Below are positions 1,329 through 20,514 of a DNA stretch of 25,555 nucleotides, one piece after another. The notes under the pieces are model-generated. The model saw nothing but the letters and a program-made list of their open reading frames with translations. It ran no database searches and was not told the DNA's origin. Positions within the stretch are counted from its first letter, which is position 1. Every line of letters starts with the position of its first letter. The translations under genes were made by a program, and so were the position numbers. The stretch comes from Chrysochromulina tobinii (lineage: Eukaryota; Haptophyta; Prymnesiales; Chrysochromulinaceae): contig JWZX01002133.1 in NCBI GenBank assembly GCA_001275005.1, positions 1 through 25,555 on the forward strand, given 5' to 3'.

Positions 1329-2890
1329 CTATCGAAGACTCTCGAGACTGGCCAGAATTTTCTCCGGCATCACTTCTGCGAGTTGATGAGGAGAGATGTA
1401 GTATCGTCTAAGCAACGCCAACGGTGTCGTGTGGGCGAGCTCGAGAATGTCGAGATCTGGTTTGGGCCATGCCTTGGGATCGGCCTTCTCCTCAGCCGCC
1501 CAATCCGGATCCTTGGGAGCGATCTCCTTGACGTGCTCGACGAACGCCTCCATGGGCGCACGGAAGGGCATGTACTCGAGAAGGAAGTCACGGACCTCGC
1601 CCTGAGGCACTCCCTTCTCCTTCGGGTAATAAGCTCGGATGTACGAGCAATGGATGTTCATGAGCAGGCGTACGACGTCAGCCGTCGGGTTATATTGGTA
1701 CGCACCTTTCATGCCTACGGTGACCTGCCGTGCAAGAGGCGTAAGCGATGCGCGGTGAATGGTGCAGCAGCGAACGGTGTTCATGCATTCATGCGCGGCC
1801 GTCGCCATCGTGGACTCTCGGCGATAGGCTCGGCGCGCACCTGCTGGCCGTCGATGCATGCCATCGACTTCCCAAAGTCAATCATCCAGACAGAGATGTC
1901 CTCAGGGTCCGACGACGGCGTTGCGAGCGATGTCGTCTGCGAGTCGGCGAGCTGCTTCTGCACCGCCAAGAGCTCCGTCTGCGAGTCGGCGAGCTGCTTC
2001 TGCACCGCCAAGAGCTTCGCTTTCTTGGGCTCGACCGTCTTGGCAACGCGCTCGTACGTATCCATCGCGCGCACCCACATGCAGAGCGACTTGGCCGCCT
2101 TGGACACCTTGCCCACCATCTCCGGCAGGAAATTTTCGTTCTTCATGTACTTTTGGATGTTCTTGATCTTCTTCTCGTCTTGGTTGTCCTTGTCGTAGTT
2201 CTGGAGCTTCTCGAGGAAGCCATCCGACATGAGCTTCTTCGCCTCACCCCAGTCGGGCTTTACACCGAACAGGATGCACACGGCCTCGAGCGTGAGCGCG
2301 ACGAGCTCGGGCGGCTGTCTGAGCGCCTTCAACTCGTTGATGTCGTTCTTGTTCAGCGACTTGAGCGCATCGACGGACGCGCAGAAGGCGGGCATCGCCT
2401 CGTCAAGGTCGCGCTGCACATCGGCGTGGATAACACTAGCCTCAATGGCGAACTGGCGCGCGGCGGCCTCCTCCTTGGCGAGGCGCTGCTTGACGAGCAC
2501 GGGATCGACGGTGTGCTTGATGTCGATCATCACGTTGCCGTCGTTGAGATCGCGGTGAGAGAACTCTGAGCCTCGGCCGAGCAGCAGCAGCGTGCATACC
2601 TTTTGGACCACCACATGGCATACGGAACGGAGGTGTGCCGCAAAAGCGACGTCTTCTATGCTGCGCAGTCTCTTGGGCTTTTCGTCGTAGCCTGGACCAC
2701 GAATAAACTTCTCGAGCGTCGTGCCCTGGACAAACTGCAGGACCGCGGTGCCACCTGTGTAGCTGTGCACGCGCGGCACTCGGGCACAGCCCAAGGATGA
2801 CCTCGCTGTCTTGGAGAGCTCATGAGCAAACTGATTGAGGCGACACTCCTTTTCCATCTTGCGCCTAGGGACGAGCCCCTTTTCATGCAC
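1329..2890 (-). CDS. Kinase-like protein with a dynein stalk inserted in its catalytic domain (5' end incomplete)
   Basis: Proposed exons are 2890-1841 and 1724-1329; the intron 1840-1725 is GT-AG, phase 0. It rejoins a frame that otherwise runs to a stop near 1781. The 350 residues of the first exon carry a hinge-like stretch (AVLQFVQGTTLEKFI, about 49-63) and a catalytic loop with HRD and N (FSHRDLNDGNVMI, 110-122). From about 131 to 318 follows a stretch that matches the axonemal or cytoplasmic dynein heavy-chain stalk (end of coiled coil 1, the microtubule-binding domain with EAVCILFGVKPDW and SKAAKSLCMWVRAM, start of coiled coil 2). The frame then returns to a kinase DFG (VWMIDFGKS, 335-342) and a C-lobe-like tail. 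The glycine loop and beta-3 lysine are not found. An acceptor just upstream (CCACAG at 2896-2891) suggests further 5' exons that I could not place. The first in-frame ATG is at 2857. The kinase family is not clear; the HRD...N form resembles haspin-like or other atypical kinases. Confidence 0.65.
1725..1840 (-). other. Predicted intron of the kinase-like gene
   Basis: Donor GTGCGC follows the codon pair CAG CAG, and acceptor CGGCAG precedes GTC ACC. Length is 116 bp, phase 0. Without removal the frame stops soon after the DFG segment; with removal a 131-residue C-lobe-like tail follows (starting VTVGMKGAYQYNP). A frameshifted gene is the alternative. Confidence 0.55.
1934..2017 (-). repeat. 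42 bp in-frame tandem duplication in the stalk coiled coil
   Basis: Two identical 42 bp units (1934-1975 and 1976-2017) give the duplicated peptide ELLAVQKQLADSQT in coiled coil 2 of the dynein-derived segment. Fourteen residues are exactly two heptads, so the coiled-coil register is kept. Confidence 0.85.
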
Positions 2891-3327
2891 CTGTGGACGT
2901 GGTCGCTTCGGGAGGCCAGCAGGGGGTCGGGAGTGCAGCGCCCCGCCCCGCACCACTCAGAACGCGTGCCTCCCCCTCTCGAGCCGCATGCCCCCTCTTC
3001 CCCCCATCTCCTCTCAACCATGCGCGCGGCTGCTCACACGAGGCATTCCGGAAACGCCGCGCATGCCGAACGCGGCCCCACATGTATGTGCGTGCGGCGG
3101 GCGCCCTCTCACGCGAGGCCGCGTGTGGCGCCACCGGGGAGCGCGTGCTCGCGACGCCTGTGTCCCGCTGTCCGTTGGAGTGACCGAGCCCACGCCGCCG
3201 CGCGGGGCAACCCCGATGAGTCGGTCGCGGCTGACGCCTCCGGGGCATCGCACGGCGCGCGGCGGGCACACGCCAGAGAGAGATGTGGGGCCTGCTGGTC
3301 TTCCGCGCAGCGCGCTCCAGAGCCGGC
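2891..3327. other. Gap between the kinase-like gene and the LRR gene
   Basis: The 437 bases upstream of the kinase acceptor hold no frame that supplies a convincing kinase N-lobe. They probably contain an intron and the missing first exon(s) of the kinase-like gene, together with the 3' untranslated region of the LRR gene. GC-rich open frames cross it on both strands but show no domain. Confidence 0.35.
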
Positions 3328-5292
3328 CTATGCGCGGGTGACTTGAGTGTGCTCGTCGAAGGTCCCCGGGTCGACGACGGTCGATGATGGGATCGTAATA
3401 GAAAAGAGGGAGGTGCAGTTCTGAAAGGCGCCCCCACCAATCTGCGTCACCGACTCGGGGAGCGTGATCGACGCGAGCGAGGCGCAGCCGTAAAAGGCGT
3501 CATCACCAATCTGCGTCACCGACTCGGGGAGCGTGATCGACGCGAGCGAGGCGCAGCCGGTAAAGGCGTACCCACCAATCTGCGTCACCGACGCGGGGAA
3601 CGTGATCGACGCGAGCGAGGCGCAGCCCTGAAAGGCGCGCTCACCAATCTGCGTCACCGATTCGGGGAGCGTGATCGACGCGAGCGAGGCGCAGCCGAAA
3701 AAGGCGCTCACACCAATCTGCGTCACCGACGCGGGGAGGTCCGCGACCGACTTGAGCGACGTGCACTCTTGCATCTTAAGCCATCGCAGCGCCGTCAACC
3801 TCGCCACAGACGCCGGCAGCGCCTTCCCCTTCCACTTCATGCGCAGATCCAGCCCGCCCACGCGCCCCTCCTCCTTGTCCGCCGTGAGCGCCCTGCCGAG
3901 CCCGTCCCGGCCGCCCTCCACCCCCGCCACCCACTCGGGATCCTCCAGGATCCACGCGTCCTCAGACGCCCCGATGAGCTCCACGTCCGTCGCCCCCGCC
4001 GCCACCATGCTCCGCCCCGCCTCCCGGCGCAGCTCGCGCTCGCGCCCGCACGATTCGATGAGCTCCATCGCGCTGCGCACGATGCCGTAGATGGCGTGGC
4101 CGGGCAGCCTAATCTCGTCGGTCAGCATCATCTCGTGCACCACCTTCACCTCGCACACGTGCCGCGTCGGGTCGTCGACGATGACAAAGTTGACCGTCAG
4201 GTCGCGCCAGCCGCTAGCCAACGGCTGGGCGAAGCGGTCCTTGATGCGCACGACCCTTAGCGCCCCGGCCTCGTGCAGCGCCAACAGCCCCCTCACAATC
4301 GACCCGACCGCCGACATGCTGGTCGCCACGAGCATCGCGCGCACCACGTCGCACACCCACTTGCTCCGGCCGCGCCCCTCGCCCGGCCGGAGCGCGCTCT
4401 TCTCGACCACGCGGCTCGTCTTCTTGAGGCCCGTCTTCTTGGCGCCGAGCACCGCGAGCTCGAGCCCCGCCCCCGTCGCGGTCGCCAGCTCGCGCACGAC
4501 CACATCGAACGACGACTTCACGCGCGCCGCGTCGGCAAAGAGCACGGCCGCGACGCCCGCCTCGTCGCGCTGCTCGGCGGCGGCGGGCTTCTCGATCGCG
4601 GCGTCGAGGTCGCCGACCGCCGCCTCGTACTTGGCCATGCCGTCCGCGTCGCCGCTCTTGATCACATTGAACACATTATCGTACACCCGCTGGAAGTCCT
4701 TGTTGCCCGCGGTGATCGCCTTCTCGCACTTCTCGACCATCGCCTTCGCCGCCTCGTCGCTCACGCCCTCGGTGCGCTTTTGAATCTCGGTGGCCATAAC
4801 CTGATCCACCACGACGAGCTGCGCACGCAGCGCGTCGACAGCCTCCTCGGAGTCTGGGTCGCGCGCCACGTTCAGCTCGAGGTCGTGCAGCAGGGCGCAC
4901 GCTGCCTTGATGGTTGGGGCCTCGGCCAGTGGCTTAAAGGTATGGAGCGCCTCGGGCAGCTTGGCCGCGTGATCGCCGCCGTGGGCGGCGTCGTGCTCGG
5001 CGCCTTCGGTGGCCGCCGCCGGCCTGATGGGGCCCAGCGCCTCGGCCGCCTTCTCTCGAAGCGGCCTGAGCGCTTCGGGCACCTCGGACTGGGCATTGGC
5101 CTCGCCAACTGGCGGCGTCTCGCCCTGCTTGGCCCCCTGCTCGAGCAGCCAGCGCCCCAGATAGGTGAGCGGCCATTTTTCCGGCCGCGCGTCGGCCAGC
5201 GCATTGATGGCGGCGCCGTAAGCCGCCTCGAGCCGGTCGCGGTGCTGGTCGACGAACGCGTTCCGCGCCTGCACGTCGCGTGCGGCGCGCAT
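3328..5292 (-). CDS. Dpy-30-like / RelA-SpoT-like / BspA leucine-rich repeat protein
   Basis: A single 654-residue frame from an ATG at 5292 to a TAG. Residues about 20-52 (AINALADARPEKWPLTYL, then GRWLLEQG) look like a Dpy-30 dimerisation helix pair. A helical middle follows. Residues about 312-410 (VVRIKDRFAQPLASGWRDL, then HVCEVKVVHEMML and GHAIY) resemble the RelA/SpoT nucleotidyltransferase fold, with RIKDR, GWRDL and CEV in the positions of the family's RxKxR, GYRD and EVQ blocks. Key catalytic residues cannot be checked without alignment, so ppGpp synthesis should not be assumed. From about 519 to the end there are five 23-residue BspA-type repeats (LPESVTQIG..AF.GCASLASIT) and a last degenerate one. 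Such repeats form a beta-solenoid used in protein binding. No membrane segment is seen. The upstream kinase-like gene is on the same strand, about 440 bp downstream. Confidence 0.75.
   Translation of the reverse strand: MRAARDVQARNAFVDQHRDRLEAAYGAAINALADARPEKWPLTYLGRWLLEQGAKQGETPPVGEANAQSEVPEALRPLREKAAEALGPIRPAAATEGAEHDAAHGGDHAAKLPEALHTFKPLAEAPTIKAACALLHDLELNVARDPDSEEAVDALRAQLVVVDQVMATEIQKRTEGVSDEAAKAMVEKCEKAITAGNKDFQRVYDNVFNVIKSGDADGMAKYEAAVGDLDAAIEKPAAAEQRDEAGVAAVLFADAARVKSSFDVVVRELATATGAGLELAVLGAKKTGLKKTSRVVEKSALRPGEGRGRSKWVCDVVRAMLVATSMSAVGSIVRGLLALHEAGALRVVRIKDRFAQPLASGWRDLTVNFVIVDDPTRHVCEVKVVHEMMLTDEIRLPGHAIYGIVRSAMELIESCGRERELRREAGRSMVAAGATDVELIGASEDAWILEDPEWVAGVEGGRDGLGRALTADKEEGRVGGLDLRMKWKGKALPASVARLTALRWLKMQECTSLKSVADLPASVTQIGVSAFFGCASLASITLPESVTQIGERAFQGCASLASITFPASVTQIGGYAFTGCASLASITLPESVTQIGDDAFYGCASLASITLPESVTQIGGGAFQNCTSLFSITIPSSTVVDPGTFDEHTQVTRA
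3421..3765 (-). repeat. 69 bp tandem repeat encoding the BspA LRR units
   Basis: The block GCGTCACCGA recurs at 3444, 3513, 3582, 3651 and 3720, an exact 69 bp period (23 codons). The conserved part of each unit is nearly identical in DNA, including silent positions, while the five bases coding the variable GERAFQ-type loop differ. This suggests recent expansion or gene conversion. Confidence 0.9.
4063..4347 (-). other. RelA/SpoT-like domain segment
   Basis: These codons are residues 316-410 of the LRR protein. Order of blocks: a helical DVVRAMLVATSMSAV, the strand RVVRIKDRF, GWRDLTVNF, HVCEVKVVH, then GHAIYGIVRSAMEL. Spacing and order agree with the RelA_SpoT synthetase fold. The resemblance is from memory of the family and has not been aligned. 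Confidence 0.5.
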
Positions 5293-6348
5293 CCACTCCG
5301 ACGTGCGGCGAGTCCTCCTTCGTGCCTGACGTGTGCGTCGCCCCCACGTGTGTTAGCAATGACGATGGCGATGAGGGAGATACACATGAGCAAATGCGAC
5401 AAGTTCGATGAGTTTCGGCTTGTACGCGCCGAAACTTCCATTTTGGGTAGGCGATGTAGGGAGATTGGGTTGCGAGCGCGCAGTGGGAATACGCGCAACA
5501 TCTCCTTCTTTTTAATAAGAACAACGGTGCGCCTATTTTCAAGGAATTCACTTTTGAGAGATTGACTTGGATATTGACTAGACTCCCCCTCCCCCCCTCG
5601 AAACCACTGTTTGGCCTTCGTGCGGGCGGGTTTGAAAGGGTCGCGGTCCCTCATCGCCCCCCACTCAAAAAGTCCGTTTCAACATACACTGGGTCACCCT
5701 GACCGTGCCTGGCTGGAACGCGGAGCACTCTTCGGTTGTTTACACCGCGGTGACTCCCTCGGACGGTCAACTCGAGTCTCGACTGCGGCATTGCCCCGAT
5801 ATATGCCGGATCAGCTGAGGAGAAGACTGATCGATCCATATTAGGAAGATAGTTGTCTATATTAGGAACAAGGCTCAGCTGAGGAGAAGACTCTCTGCTC
5901 GATCACGCCAGCGCCGCGAATGACGCGTCTCTCACACACGGTGCAGCTGCAGGTGTACAGGCCTCGGTCATCCACTCACCCTCCGCGCTCCATCATCACC
6001 AGATCCACCGTCCCGCGTGACGACCCTCTCTCCCTCTCTCCCTCTCTCCCTCTCTCGGTTCGCACCGCACCGCCTCAGCACGAGAGGATCTCCATTGATC
6101 TCCATTGATCTCCATTGATCTCCATTGATCTCCACCGCCTCAGCACGAGAGGATCTCCACTGATCTCGAGAGGATCTCCACTGATCTCCACCGGCTAAGC
6201 ACGAGAGGATCTCCACTGATCTCGCGAGAGTTCGTCAAGCGCAACCGCGAGAGGATTCGGGATATCGTCAACTGCCAAATTAGGATGCGCGGCTCGAGAG
6301 AGAGAGAGGCGCTCAACATGGCGCTCATCATGGCGCTCAACATGGCGC
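5293..6348. other. Intergenic region between the LRR gene and LETM1
   Basis: No supported gene. It should contain the promoter of the LRR gene near 5293 and the 3' untranslated region of LETM1 near 6348. It holds a 17 bp direct repeat (CAGCTGAGGAGAAGACT near 5813 and 5876), a CCCTCTCT stretch around 6030-6055, and an array of GATCTCCATT and GATCTCCACT units at about 6090-6225. Confidence 0.6.
6085..6225. repeat. GATCTCCAYT tandem and interspersed repeats downstream of LETM1
   Basis: Four back-to-back GATCTCCATT units are followed by three copies of a longer unit with CAGCACGAGAGGATCTCCAC or close variants (AGCACGAGAGGATCTCC). They lie beyond the LETM1 stop codon and resemble, on the transcribed strand, the GATYGC arrays inside the last LETM1 intron. 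Confidence 0.7.
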
Positions 6349-9300
6349 TCAAGGTCCGCTGCCTCCCGCCGCGGCCGCCGCGGCGGCGGCCTTCGCGCCC
6401 GGCGTCACGCCCGTGTTCTCCTCGTCCGTCACGTCCGCAATCTCGCGCATGTCCTTGATGAGCTTGCGGATCTCGCCCACCGAGATCTGCCCGTCCTGGT
6501 CCGTGTCCATCTTGACGAGCAGAGCCTCGAATGCCTGCGCGTCTGGCCGACGAGATGGCTCGAGCTGCGCGACGAGATCGCACCGAGATCGGGCGAGCAG
6601 ATCGCAATCAGCCAAGGAGATCGCACCCAAACAGATCGTACCCGGATCGCAATCAGATCACACGCAGATCGCAATCAGCCCAGGAGATCGCACCCAGATC
6701 GCAATCAGATCGCACTCAGATTGCACTCAGATCGCACTCAGATTGCACTCAGATTGCACTCAGATCGCACTCAGATCGCACCCAGATCGCACTCAGATCG
6801 CACTCTCACCTCTTCCATCGCTTTGAGCAGCTCGCCCTTGGAAAGCATCCCGTCGCCATCGAGATCGAGCTTGTGGAACGCCGCGCCAATCGAGACCTCG
6901 CTCGCCTCCATCTCGGTCTTGATGCGGTCCATCATCGACTGCACACGCGAGTCGAGTAGCTTGACAGCGCGGGACGACTTTTTCGCCTCCTCCACCGTGC
7001 CCGCCGCTGCGACGCGCTCAGCTTCGAGCTCCGCCATCTCCTCCCTGATGAGGGATGCAATCAGTGATGAGGGATGCAATCAGAGGTCATCAGCGCTCAG
7101 CTTCGAGCTCCGCCATCTCCTCCCTGATGAGGGATGCAATCGGTCGCACCCAGGCAGGTCATCAGTGGCCATCCATTCGGAGGTCATGAGTGGCAATGGT
7201 GGTCATTAGTGGCAATCAGTGGGAGAGGGGGACTACCTTTCCATAAGGATGGGTGAGTCGATCTATTAGTGGCCATTAGTGGCCATTAGTGGCCATTAGT
7301 GGCAATCAGTGGGAGGGGGGGACTAACCTTTCCATACGGATGGGTGAGTCGATCATCGTGTCGATCGCCTCAGCCAGATTCGCAATCTGCTCGCGCGTGA
7401 GATGCACGACCGGCTCGGCCTCGGCCACGGCGCCCGGCACGGCGCCTGGACCCTTGGCGCCCGCCGCAGACAGCGCCTCCGACGCTCGAGACAGCGCCTC
7501 CGCGTTCGCCATGTACTGGGCGGCGGGGAGATCGAGATCTGCCGCCTCGAGCTCGCGATCTGCCGCCTCGAGCGGAATCTGCGCGGCGTCCGCGGCCTTC
7601 TCGAACGCGTCCCCTTCCTCGTAAGCGCTGAGAGCCGCGGTTCCTAATTTGGAAGGTGCGGAGGACGAAACGGTCGTCTCGGGCGTCGTATCGGGCGCGA
7701 ACATGCGATCCTCGAGCTTGTCAACCGCCGAGTCGAGAACGATGCGCTCCTGATGAAGGGAGCCATCAGAGACCATCAGACGCGAGCAGAAGCAATCAAG
7801 GGAGATCGAGTCGAGAACGATGCGCTCCTGATGAAGGGAGCCATCAGAGACCATCAGACGCCATCAGAAGCAATCAAGGCAGATCGAGGCAGATCGGGGC
7901 AGATCGAGGCGGAGATCGCACCTCATCGACGAGCTCCTCCTCTCGGTGGAGCGCCATCAGAGGCAATCACGGGAGATCGATGGAGATCGCACCTCCTCGA
8001 CGAGCTCCTCCTCTCGGTGAAGCGCTTCGAGCTTCTCGCCGCTCGTCTGGTCGGCGATCAAGGTCGACATGGCTGCCATCTCAGTCGGGAGCGACGACAT
8101 GGCGGCCTGGGCGGCGGCGAGGGGGAGCACAGTCTCACCGACAGTCTCACCTGATGAGGGAGGCAAGTTAGGGGGGTAATTAGGGGGGTAATTAGGGGGA
8201 GCACAGTCTCACCGACGGTCTCACCTGATGAGGGAGGTAATTAGGGAGGTAATTAGGGGGGGGTAATTAGGGGGAGCACAGTCTCATCGACGGTCTCACC
8301 GGCGTCGCCGAGCAGCGCGCGCTGGCTTTGGTCGTGGCGAGTGGCCGTGAAGTGGAGCATGTTCGTGAGGATGAGGAGGGAGTACCTGTGGGGAAGAGGC
8401 GCGGGCGTCGTGGTGAGCACTTGCATGCGAGGGGCAGGCCCATATTTGGTTCGGGGAGGAGACAGCGATGACGGGACCTCCTTCGAGGGCAATCAAGGCC
8501 AATCAAGGCCAATCAAGTGCAATCAAAGGCCAATCAAGGCCAATCCAGTGCAATCAAAGGCCAATCAAGGCCAATCAAGTGCAATCAAAGGCCAATCAAG
8601 GCCAATCAAGGCCAATCAAGGCCAATCAAGGCCAATCAAGCGTACGGAATCTCCTTTTCCTGCGAGAGCGAGAGCCATTGCTCCATCGCCTTCTGCATCT
8701 GCTTGTGGTTCAGGTCCTTGGTAGGCAAGCCGCGGTTACGAAGGTCGGTGCGTAGCTCGGTCTCGCTCAGACCGCCGATACCTGTGGGGAAGAGGAGCGG
8801 GCGCCGTGGTGAGCACTTGCATGCGTAGCTCGGTCTCACTCAGACCGCCGATACCTTCGCACAGGAGCGATGGAAAGCCGCATGCAATTAGAGTGGTCAT
8901 CAGCGCTCATCAGTGCTCATCAGAGCTCATCAGAGCTCATCAGCGCTCATCAGCGGCACGCACCTTCCCACAAGATCTCCTTGTCCTCGAGGTCAATCAA
9001 GGCCAATCAAGGTCAATCAAGGGCCATCAAGGGCACCTTCCCACAAGATCTCCTTGTCTTCATTGCGCAGTCTCCGCAGCCGTTGACGAATCTGGAAGCG
9101 GAGCAGCGCCGTGGGCGCGAAGTGGTTCATGTTGAGGAATTGTGCCATCGCAATGAGCTGGTCTCGGTACCTGATGAGGGAGGCAATCAGGCGTCCTCAG
9201 AGGTCATCAGAGGTCATTAGAGGTTATTTAGAGGCCATCGGGAGCACTCACGGGTCGTCAGAGGTCATCAGAGGTCATCAGAGGTCACCAGAGGTCATCA

Positions 9301-16100: not shown

Positions 16101-16676
16101 GATGAGCTCCCTAATTGCCTCCTTCATGAGATGCTCTCTGATAAAGTGCCCAATCTCATGCTCCAAGTTGGACCCCGCCCTGCATGCAAGTGCTCACCAC
16201 GGCGCCCTGCCCTCTTCCCCACAGGTACCCAATCTCGTACTCCAGGCGGCCAAGGCCCTCGGCCAGGTGGGCGCGTTGCCCCACTATGCCAAGGCGAAGG
16301 AGCCGATCAAGACGGCGCTGCGTGCCAAGCTGCCCGATCTGCGCACGGGAGGTACGGAGATTTACCCGAGATTTCCTATTGACGAACCCCCCCGCGTGCC
16401 AAGCTGCCCGATCTGCGCACGGGAGGTACAGAGACCGATCTGGACGTGGCGGTGGACATCGAGCATGCAAGTGCTCACCACGGCGCCCTCCCCTTCCCTC
16501 TCCCCACAGGTACGGAGAGCGATCTGGATGTGGCGGTGGAGATCGCCACGGCGCTCGTGGCGCTCGGGGAGGTGCGCTCCTCCGATCCGAAGCTCGAGGC
16601 GGCGCTCACCTACCTGGAGGAGACGCACTCGCTCGCCCTCAAAAAGGAAGACGCGAAGGCTGAGGCGCCTTCCTAA
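13183..16676 (+). CDS. PR65-like (PP2A/PP4 A-type) HEAT-repeat phosphatase scaffold, 7 exons
   Basis: Exons 13183-14427, 14561-14813, 14924-15281, 15404-15740, 15977-16060, 16225-16351 and 16510-16676 give 856 residues with consistent phases. The ATG at 13183 has a strong context (GCCGCCATGG). The N-terminal 600 residues follow the PP2A A-subunit pattern: MPWIALSIGVEATRKELVPF, EDEVLTHLAVVLGDFADYVG, TLVREAAVKSIIQLSEKIA, WFSSRVSAYGL, DAKSWRVRVAVAESLADVA, EAEVKHASAKCAAAA and LKDPNWRVRHASLSMLPFLA. Such solenoids hold the catalytic and regulatory subunits of PP2A or PP4 together. The length exceeds the usual 590 residues of PR65. A low-complexity stretch (AAGSGAASSSEGGG) and further HEAT-like helices (VPNLVLQAAKALGQVGA) extend the C-terminus, closer to PP4R1-type scaffolds in length. 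PR65 and PP4R1 cannot be separated here without alignment. Confidence 0.85.
14428..14560 (+). repeat. Scaffold gene intron 1: 40 bp x 3 repeat intron
   Basis: Three tandem copies of a unit with GATGRCCATTTCTGACGAGT and CYGAGCTCACATCTCCC. Donor is GTGGCCC after CGCTTG and acceptor CATCACGCAG; phase 0, 133 bp. Removal joins ARPRL to VLGDDLSADRRVEL; the unspliced frame stops within the first unit. Confidence 0.8.
14814..14923 (+). mobile_element. Scaffold gene intron 2: introner-like element (type A), diverged
   Basis: A 110 bp phase 1 intron with the shortened core GCGCTCACCACGGCGCC at 14863-14879, then two CCCGTCCCTCCC runs and TTCACAG. The first bases (GTGTGC) match the exon 3 start (TGTGCGAG), a possible short target duplication. 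Confidence 0.75.
15282..15403 (+). mobile_element. Scaffold gene intron 3: introner-like element with doubled core
   Basis: Two tandem copies of the type A core (CAGCATGCGCGTGCTCACCA then CGGCGCCCG) near 15317-15377, followed by a C-rich tract and CCAG. Both exon junctions carry GTAC: AC|GTACGC at the donor and CAG|GTACCC at the acceptor. Phase 2, 122 bp. Confidence 0.85.
15741..15976 (+). repeat. Scaffold gene intron 4: duplicated exon end plus TGATTGCC array
   Basis: The end of exon 4 with its donor (15702-15771) is copied almost exactly at 15783-15852. An array of CTCCTGATTGCCA units follows, and the intron ends GATTTGGCAG. Use of the second donor would include an in-frame TGA, so the first donor is the productive one. 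Phase 0, 236 bp. Confidence 0.85.
16061..16224 (+). mobile_element. Scaffold gene intron 5: introner-like element with a copy of the joined exons
   Basis: The intron holds the type A core (GCATGCAAGTGCTCACCACG at 16183-16202) and CTTCCCCACAG. Upstream of the core, at 16129-16168, lies a copy of the exon 5 end running straight into the exon 6 start (GAGATGCTCTCTGATAAAG then TGCCCAATCTCATGCTCCAA). The donor region 16061-16082 also resembles the exon 6 start (GTGCCCCATCTCGTACTCCA). Three versions of the same junction therefore lie in tandem. Confidence 0.85.
16352..16509 (+). mobile_element. Scaffold gene intron 6: introner-like element with a copy of the joined exons
   Basis: Positions 16394-16463 are a contiguous copy of exon 6 end plus exon 7 start (CGATCTGCGCACGGGAG then GTACAGAGACCGATCTGGAC and onwards), with a few substitutions. 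Directly after it come the core GCATGCAAGTGCTCACCACG and a tract ending CTCTCCCCACAG. Phase 1, 158 bp. The copied junction is intron-free. Confidence 0.88.
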
Positions 16677-17736: not shown

Positions 17737-20298
17737 TCACCCCTCAAGCACGCCGGCCGCTCGCAGATCTCTATCGTGGCACTTCTCTGTCTGCCCCGAG
17801 CCAAGCGTTTCGATCTCCACGGTGTAGAGCGCCTCCTCTGCATCGTATGCGTTCACATAGGCGAGAGTCTCGTCTCCGTTGCTGCGCTTCAAGAACACGC
17901 AGCTGCCGATGGCGTAGCGCTTCTCATGGGCGGGCACGGGGTTGGGGGCCGCCGTTGCGACCGCGGGTTTAGGTTCCCAGCTTTTGAAACGTCTCAACGA
18001 CGTGCCTATCGATCTCCAGAATCTTGGGCAACATGGTCTCCTTGTCCTTTGCATTGGTGACGTTCACGTCCGGACTCTTGAGGATACGATACATTTCGTA
18101 GGGCGTCTTTTTGGAGACCAGATCTACAAGGCCCTTGGCTGTCGTCTCGGATCTCCAGGATCTTGAGGCAACATGGTCTTCTCAGGTTTAGGTTCCCAGC
18201 TATGAAACGTCTCAATGACCTTGTCGTTGGTCTTCTGGATGATGGGCAACATGATCTCCTTGTCCTTTGCATTGGTGACGTTCACGTCCGGCTTCTCGAG
18301 GATACGATACATTTCATCGGGCGTCTTTGTGGACACCTTGTCGACGAGGCCCTTGGCATCATACTCGTCGGTAGCGTTGTGGATGCATTCGATCGTGTAG
18401 CGACGCTCAGCCTCCGTTGCGGGGCGGAGCCCCTCGGGCGTGACCGTCTGCATCGAGCACCATGCCTCGAAGAGCGTCCAGAACCTGGACGCGTACGACC
18501 CATCGATGAGAATGAGGACGTGCGCGGTCAGGTTGAGGTCGGTGATGGCGGAGAGCATCAGCTGGAACTCGGCCTTCTCCATGGGAGTCCGATCGTCGAT
18601 GCCATAGTTGCTTTGGGGCATCGATGAATAGTCGAACCAGACCCACTTGATGTCTGGGTGCGCTTCCAGATACATCTTGATGGCCTCGAGCTGCACGCCG
18701 TCGACATCAGGCCGAGAAGGCTCTTCCCAGCGATGGCTCACGAAGAGGATGTGATTGATGATGCCCACGCCGTGAAACGCGTCGCCCAGAGGGATTCGGA
18801 TCTTTTTCAGGTGTCCAACGTTGCGCAGGGTCTGCATGGGAGGCAAAGATCGGGTCCTGCAGTCAAGCACAACTTTTCTAGGGATGAAGTAGAAGAAGGG
18901 TGCGTCGTCGGCCCAGCGCTCATCGCTGTGCCATCGGAGCTCTTCGATGGCCTGCTCCACCTTCTTCGGGGCGGCCTGGTCCTTTCTGATGGCCTGCTCC
19001 ACCTGCATTCGATGGCGAAATTGCCTGCAGCAACCACAGAGAAAGTGACAGAGAAAGTGACAAAGAGTGGCGAGAAACGCCACGCAGAAATAGTCCCAGT
19101 ATTCGTTGCCCCCCCTTGGATCGCGTGCGGGCGCCCTTGACGATCTTGCCGCCCCCGGCTGCGGCGGGGGTTTGGATGCAGGGGGTTTCCCCGTATGACT
19201 CTCGCGCTCCATGACCAAGGGTGCGACCGGCGGCTGCAACGGTGGCGGCTGCGGTGCTGGCGCCTTTGGTGTTCGAGCCGCATCCGCATGGTTGTCGTCC
19301 TCTCGCAGTTCTGCCTCGTGCGACTCTGGGATCACGCTGTGCATGCCGCTCATCATCTCCCGGACGTGCTCGTCGGTCTTGCCGACGATCGGCAGCATCG
19401 TCACCTTGTCCTTCTTGTTGGTCACCGCCACGTCGGGCGACGCGAGGAACTTGGACATCTCCGCCGGCGTCTTGGTCGACATCTCCAGCAGGGCCTCTCG
19501 GTCCTTGTGCGTCGCGTTGTGGATGCACACGACGGTGACACGCGACTCTCCCGCCCTTGCCGGGCGCACGCCCTGCGGCGTCACCTGCTGCATCGCGCAC
19601 CAGCCCTCCATCGTCGTCCAGAACCGCGAGCGGTACATGGTGTCGAGCAGGATGAGCACCTTGGCCGTCAGGTAGAGGTCGGCGATCGATTTGAGCATGA
19701 GGTCGAACTCGGCCTTCTCCGCGGGCGTGCGGTCGTCCTGATCCTGCAGGCAGCCGCTCGAGCGTTGTGGCATGCACGAGTAGTCGAACCAGACGTACTG
19801 GATCTCAGGGTGGGCCTGCAGGTGCGCCTTGATCGCCGCCAGCTGCGCGCCGGTCTCGTCGGGTGTCGCGGGGTCTTCCCACCTGTGGCTGACGAAGAGG
19901 ACGTTCTTGATCAGCCCCTTGCCCTGGAAGGCGTCGTTCAGGTCGATGAGCACCTTCACGAGCAGCTTCGAGTCGCGCATCTCCTGCATACGCTGCAGCT
20001 GCTTGGCGGTCAGATCCAGCACGGCGGCGCGGGTCAAAAAGTAGAAGCCGGGCTTGAGCGGGTCCCACGCCGTCTCTTCGGCCTTGAATTCATTGAATCT
20101 CTCCTCATCCCATCGCGGGTCATCGATGAGCGTGGCGTCCCTGAAGATCTCGCTGGGAGACGTCATCCGCATCTGAGATGATGAGGCCGAGGGCTTGGGT
20201 CCGAACCAGCCATCCAGCTGGGCGCGTGCAGAATCGACGAGGCTCGAGATCGGATTGGCCTGGCCTTCGTCCGGGTTGAGCGGCGCAAGTTCTTCCAT
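17737..20298 (-). CDS. Membrane protein with two SHRWE (TIR/HET-like) domains and a C-terminal SH3/Tudor-like domain
   Basis: The long frame opens at a TTG at 20421, but the first ATG is at 20298 (context GGCATGG). Proposed exons 20298-18128 and 17980-17737 give 804 residues. Two homologous blocks each contain LFVSHRWE (first SHRWE at 137-141, second at 521-525), VWFDYSCMPQ or VWFDYSSMPQ, a helix AEKAEFDLML and FWTTMEGWCAM or FWTLFEAWCSM. This order recalls TIR-like and heterokaryon-incompatibility folds (compare the HET WIDAxCINQ motif); enzymatic activity is not established. A proline-rich linker and a Cys-rich hydrophobic segment (YFCVAFLATLCHFLCHFLCG) about residues 398-423 separate them, so the halves may lie around a membrane. 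The tail (RYAIGSCVFLKRSNGDETLA then YVNAYDAEEALYTVEIETLG) looks like a small beta-barrel. Without the intron the first exon ends QPRAL at 18124. Confidence 0.65.
17981..18127 (-). repeat. Predicted intron of the SHRWE gene, a decayed copy of the upstream exon
   Basis: The stretch repeats the preceding exon (about 18190-18360) with roughly 80-90% identity by eye, including KPDVNVTNAKDKE, but with two single-base insertions that break the frame. A GT-AG pair (donor GTAGATC, acceptor CAAAAG) joins PRRQPRAF to WEPKPAVAT in phase 2. A truncated protein or a frameshifted tandem repeat is the alternative. Confidence 0.45.
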
Positions 20299-20514
20299 GC
20301 CAAAGTGTCTCGCGACCCGGAGGTTCCTAGGTTTGGCTCGTGTGAACCCGTTATTTTCCAACGAAAAGCCTGTACCGGTACGTCGCTCACTGTGCTCCAG
20401 GGGAGCGGCGACTTTGGGCAATTACGTGGTTCAATATCAATATCACTCTGCCCCGGCCCGAGCGCACAGCCGCTGCACCGCCAATCATGCAGCCGCCACA
20501 GCTGCTTCGACGGC

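Follow-up and report, generated by a model that had tools for sequence, protein, structure and literature searches.

An in-frame dynein stalk segment between the catalytic loop and DFG motif of a kinase-like gene copy in Chrysochromulina tobinii

In a 25,555-nucleotide stretch of Chrysochromulina tobinii DNA (the window, to which all coordinates refer), we identified a kinase-like gene copy (1329..2857, minus strand) whose 5' part, including the N-lobe, is absent, and which carries a dynein stalk where its family passes from the catalytic-loop segment to the DFG motif. The observations that carry this account are each seen directly—a matching dynein gene in the same genome, relatives with an empty site, an intact frame, the absence of the N-lobe and a dN/dS near 1—and on balance we regard the insert as probably a young, tolerated in-frame dynein-fragment passenger in a predicted catalytically dead product, not as part of a working microtubule-binding kinase. 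In PMC full text, judged by titles and the starts of abstracts, we found no description of a dynein stalk within a kinase-like protein.

The chimeric frame lies on the minus strand at 1784-2956 (391 codons) and holds both HRDLNDGNV, in the catalytic loop HRDLNDGNVMID whose first base is at 2557, and DFGKS, whose first base is at 1879. Comparison of the frame with its relatives divides the locus, all on the minus strand, into an exon 1 flank before the insert (2501..2857; MEKECRL...HRDLNDGNVMIDIKHTVDP), identical at 325 of 351 aligned bases to a paralog on contig C361 of the same genome; the insert itself (1937..2500; 564 bases, 188 codons, starting with GT and ending with AG), which is exactly residues 153-340; an exon 1 flank after the insert (1841..1936; TTSLATPSSDPEDISVWMIDFGKSMACIDGQQ); and exon 2, with the C-terminal region VTVGMKGAYQYN...SLESLR and a stop (1329..1724). 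The 116-base segment between the exons (1725..1840; GTGCGC...GGCAG) is a likely intron, because P0025 lacks it, reading contiguously across the site as ...IDGEQVTAGMKG, and the C361 paralog has a 112-base version. The same chimera is encoded by a database cluster, P0001 (100% identity over 86% of the frame), which represents 4 sequences in 3 contigs of at most 3,537 bases each, possibly from the same sample, and is the sole protein with both kinase-like and stalk parts among the 79 proteins of one collection and the 32 of another. Elsewhere in the window, a 765-residue open frame at 18124-20421 (minus strand) contains one domain in two tandem copies (ILFVSHRWEEPSRPD... and VLFVSHRWEDPATPD...), and a search against Rfam at gathering scores returned no match. 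A protein phosphatase 2A subunit matched one environmental protein at 93% and apart from that distant relatives, with Prymnesium parvum at 33% among 120 listed matches of 342.

The dynein likeness of the insert is not a chance resemblance, since protein residues 161-339 match positions 54-247 of 344 in the PF12777 profile (4.9e-24) and a PDB sequence search of the insert returned dynein heavy chains, with human DNAH6 the best (1.6e-43). Among the dyneins of this genome, the closest is a heavy-chain gene of DNAH6-like type on G000:C2006, with 92% DNA identity over insert bases 7-522; we label this nearest match the donor. The gene stays open for 1,185 codons within the locus examined, and in the PDB it is most closely related to a Chlamydomonas axonemal chain and to DNAH6. 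The sequence-only reading of this locus had claimed that both sets of motifs share one frame, that the segment between catalytic loop and DFG is a dynein stalk, and that its borders lie near 2500 and 1937; all of this is borne out, with the borders falling exactly at 2500 and 1937.

As in the stalk of DNAH6-like axonemal chains, the insert presents the end of coiled coil 1, the microtubule-binding core and the start of coiled coil 2 in that order. Six bases at its 5' border (GTGCTC, 2495..2500) fall outside the donor alignment and are followed by the first stalk helix (2318..2494), the most diverged part of the insert relative to the donor; by the microtubule-binding domain core (2033..2317; QPPELV ... 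KTV), supported by the PDB match, predicted structure and Foldseek; and by the start of coiled coil 2 (1937..2032; EPKKAKL...). Unlike a dynein heavy chain, however, the insert has truncated arms and altered conserved positions, is hosted by another protein and comes without the AAA ring: donor homology is confined to 516 bases, Pfam finds no AAA-ring match in the frame, and the insert thus falls short of a full-length stalk rising from that ring. Its stalk is short, with 59 aligned residues ahead of QPP, and arm 2 is lengthened by a 14-residue tandem duplication at the right border (1934..2017) that is not in the donor. The duplicated 42-base unit, 14 codons or two heptads long, takes in the first kinase-side codon together with two bases that differ between insert and donor, and for this reason the duplication appears to postdate the insertion. 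By eye, no target-site duplication was seen around the insert; a 23-base match between the left junction and another place in the dynein gene was treated as coincidence.

Structure prediction of the unspliced 391-residue frame, using a mixed 36-row alignment, yielded helices at 152-199 (the end of coiled coil 1) and 286-341 (the start of coiled coil 2) with the microtubule-binding core between them, the arrangement of two long helices that had been proposed from sequence. Stalk pLDDT was 81-93 in ten-residue blocks across 161-330, with 67 and 71 at the ends, and Foldseek matched the model to dynein stalks (best 8i3j, E 2.7e-12; 6rza_X at TM 0.77 by target length). The model indicates that the stalk is able to fold on its own, and leaves the kinase-like flanks unfolded (pLDDT 29-53).

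The insertion site is well defined by relatives. Stalk-less members of the family, such as P0002, P0005 and P0013, show the exact empty site KHTVDP|TTSLATPSSD at the point where 188 residues (window 2500-1937) separate KHTVDP from TTSLATPSSD in the chimera, with P0013-type relatives reading ...VMIDIKHTVDP-TTSLATPSSDPEDIAVWMIDFGKS. The C361 paralog (L012) is likewise without a stalk, and has a loop of a different type, KDTARDAVVKDPED. This position, which we take to be the turn between strands 7 and 8 of the kinase fold, tolerates change, since loop length varies across the 32-row family alignment: it is short in P0025 and P0033, and 13 residues longer in P0026.

How far the host can be called a kinase depends largely on its relatives. 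The host family is environmental and is marked by HRDLNDGN and DFGKS, with one member (P0080) fused to DUF6815. With Pfam cut-offs of 23.1 bits for PF07714 and 31.7 for PF00069, four of the six relatives scanned passed PF07714 (P0080, 30.9; L012, 29.1; P0022, 25.6; P0025, 23.4 bits), P0012 (22.9 bits) and P0082 (21.4 bits) did not, and none of the six passed PF00069. Searching the PDB with a profile of the family alignment yielded five weak matches, all to tyrosine kinases and each best in the N-lobe, and the predicted model of P0025 has a mean pLDDT of 45. The chimera's own flanks, joined without the stalk, had no significant match to a Pfam kinase (best Haspin, E 0.32). The kinase-like character proposed for the flanks is thus suggested by the modest Pfam scores of N-lobe-bearing relatives. 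Like protein kinases (PF00069 / PF07714), the chimera keeps the HRD catalytic loop and DFG, and most relatives also have the Gly loop and VAIKK; unlike them, it lacks the N-lobe, with its Gly loop and VAIK lysine, and bears 188 inserted residues. The suggestion of a working kinase-like enzyme therefore finds no support here, with the Gly loop and VAIKK lysine missing and the insert free of detectable purifying selection.

We compared the insert with its donor over 172 codons and found 40 base differences, falling at codon positions as 12/16/12; by count, 7.8 were synonymous and 32.2 nonsynonymous (dN/dS 1.12, bootstrap 0.59-3.40), and purifying selection on the insert was not detected in this comparison. 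Six further dynein proteins, including a partial one, served to polarise the 26 residue differences: 20 had arisen in the insert and 4 in the donor, with 2 ambiguous. The insert alters 9 of the 91 columns that are invariant in the donor and the other dyneins, and in a control set of 94 columns that do not vary across five or more other dyneins it differs at 11, compared with 3 for the donor. Divergence is nevertheless uneven, at 23/177 bases before QPP (coiled coil 1) vs. 17/339 after it (core and coiled coil 2; p = 0.003), which would be compatible with a degree of constraint on the microtubule-binding core; dN/dS is 1.77 in the first helix and 0.85 in the core alone, both on few sites. The insert frame is intact, with no stop, a net 3-base loss and the 42-base duplication, and the chance of a stop-free insert is 0.18-0.40. 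This intact frame is a weak sign of translation, since the case was picked out for its open frame. As far as is visible, the stalk sequence itself appears unconstrained while its frame stays intact. For the kinase-like exons compared with C361, dN/dS is 0.56 (0.34-0.98).

We next consider the N-lobe and the upstream junction, which bear on the alternative that the whole locus is a mosaic pseudogene close to a chromosome end, not transcribed and with an open frame that reflects only its youth. Family homology ends upstream at the ATG (2857), and the kinase-like fragment there abuts, at 2857/2858, on sequence that follows an LRR gene (gene at 3328-5352; downstream flank at 2858..3327, minus strand). 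The N-lobe of relatives (GEGIWGTVY loop, VAIKK) had no significant match in the window in tblastn searches with four N-lobe-bearing relatives, and on these same searches we rejected an N-lobe lying elsewhere in the window behind an intron. The LRR-gene flank recurs in the genome (12 matches, counting the window itself and short pieces), and in C428, C960 and C587 it continues differently from the same base. The kinase-like copy thus appears to be 5'-truncated, unless the 2857/2858 junction is an assembly error; this junction joins two repeated sequences and could be a local misassembly, in which case an N-lobe may exist after all. Within 2858-5352, the window shows an LRR_5 (BspA-type) gene with a 69-base repeat array at 3424-3738.

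The loss of the N-lobe and 5' end and the repeated adjoining flank are what a pseudogene would be expected to display, and the chimeric copy also sits 0.9 kb from a short telomere-type array: an interstitial (CCCTAA)12 at 358-430, 357 bases inside the contig, in the orientation that such arrays have where contigs like C103, C992 and C1485 begin. Exon 2 points the same way: of three sequences compared, this one has 19 private changes and the others 2 and 6, a hint of either decay or a different subfamily. Against this, however, the exon 1 flanks are unchanged at all 51 columns that do not vary among the relatives compared, with 2 residues private to this copy across 152 columns (32 rows, leaving out P0081 and P0032, two odd rows of the family), and the intron borders and final stop are intact. 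We consider an untranscribed pseudogene unlikely.

The insert borders, which begin GTGCTC and end TCGCAG, are compatible with splicing-out and so stand against our favoured reading of a translated passenger: exact removal restores KHTVDP|TTSLATPSSD, and the dynein piece could be a newly gained intron, leaving as product an ordinary kinase-like protein without its N-lobe. The lack of detectable purifying selection on its codons agrees with this, as do the many introner-like copies in the genome and the inspected introns, which use varied GT sites and several of which look recently gained. But at 564 bases the insert is far from the 112-116 of the gene's other intron, its 3' end is not pyrimidine-rich (47% over 30 bases vs. 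63% in the gene's own intron), and a spliced insert has no need of a sense frame, freedom from stops or length changes in threes, where the chance that both length changes fall in threes is about 1/9 if all lengths are equally probable. BLASTN places the 3-base loss as 2+1, and the dN/dS comparison places it as one codon. This frame argument is itself weakened, because the frame is how the case was noticed. Taking both sides together, a new intron seems to us rather improbable.

Introner-like elements in this genome are about 40 bases long, with a core GCAAGTGCTCACCACGGCGCC and usual end CCCCACAG; cores occur in the window at 16190 and 16471 (plus strand) and at 8816 and 9907 (minus strand), and 351 exact copies of the core are present in the genome, compared with 0 for a reversed control. 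Of 17 rows inspected, which cover 15 distinct sites because L035 and L036 overlap, 8 had the element flanked by near-identical host direct repeats (at least 17/20 bases, counted without a shuffled control). By eye the repeats run to about 20-35 bases and often begin with GT, and those that do would supply the 5' splice site. They are longer than the target duplications of 3-9 bp given for introners in PMC9860276. Set beside introners and intron gain (PMC9860276), our insert is likewise bounded by GT and AG, and its removal would restore the parental peptide; it differs in being coding-derived, in being the one such insertion found in the genome and in showing no target-site duplication by eye. 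Likely introns of two dynein genes, L014 (G000:C987) and L009 (G000:C1882), are of another kind, rich in TGATTGC-type repeats and ending CTCATCAG, and two gaps in the C987 gene are flanked on both sides by duplicated exon sequence.

A further possibility is that the locus encodes a functional pseudokinase tethered to microtubules, in which the stalk would be translated, folded and microtubule-bound, and the C-lobe fragment thereby held at the axoneme or the cytoskeleton. The confident prediction of both helices and core with solved dynein stalks as the best matches, the kept frame, the lower divergence of the core than of coiled coil 1, and a duplication of exactly two heptads would all fit such a protein. 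These are offset by the absence of detected purifying selection (core dN/dS being below 1 on few sites), the alteration of dynein columns that are otherwise invariant, the unfolded flanks of the model and stalk arms that are short and unequal, and we hold a functional tether to be very doubtful. Equally doubtful in our estimate is the fuller form of this reading, a natural microtubule-tethered pseudokinase that arose through in-frame capture of part of a motor, in which the loop from catalytic loop to DFG has turned into a dynein stalk and arm 2 was later lengthened by the frame-preserving two-heptad duplication. An assembly join of the present-day dynein gene is ruled out by the 8% divergence, the insert's own duplication and the presence of P0001 in 3 other contigs.

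The favoured reading of a tolerated passenger can be put as a series of steps. A stretch of 516 bases from a DNAH6-like axonemal heavy-chain gene would have been pasted in through DNA end-joining, as we infer from the six extra bases and the lack, by eye, of a target duplication. If the locus is transcribed, the stalk would be translated and would presumably fold independently into an antiparallel hairpin, within a loop of already variable length. What is kept would then be the downstream frame and not the stalk sequence, and the product would probably be unable to bind ATP in the usual kinase way, since it lacks the Gly loop and VAIKK lysine. Against this reading, survival of the frame could instead reflect selection on the stalk itself, and the core with coiled coil 2 is less diverged than coiled coil 1.

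Other joins involving this part of dynein occur among the proteins collected. P0060, P0075 and P0076, each one sequence in one contig (1,061-1,370 bases), combine parts of this dynein stretch with unrelated domains—a parvulin-type rotamase in P0060, an OB-fold segment in P0075, and AAA_34 plus scramblase in P0076—and may be assembly artefacts or further captures. They serve as a caution that joins of this sort can be artefactual. The chimera described here sits on a 25.6-kb contig, is diverged, carries a duplication and recurs in P0001, which sets it apart from those three.

Young chimeric genes have reportedly been formed from gene fragments in Drosophila yakuba. Our case shares with them known parents, a recent age and an open chimeric frame, and may differ in that the insert lies within a domain. 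With the donor, the empty site and the chimera all identified, the locus would represent an early stage of domain capture, and would be an example of a hairpin with antiparallel arms and adjoining ends entering the structured core of a protein, not its terminus, with the frame left intact. If the gene is expressed, it would offer a direct test of the fate of such an insert, as a protein loop, as a new intron or as a segment destined for loss.
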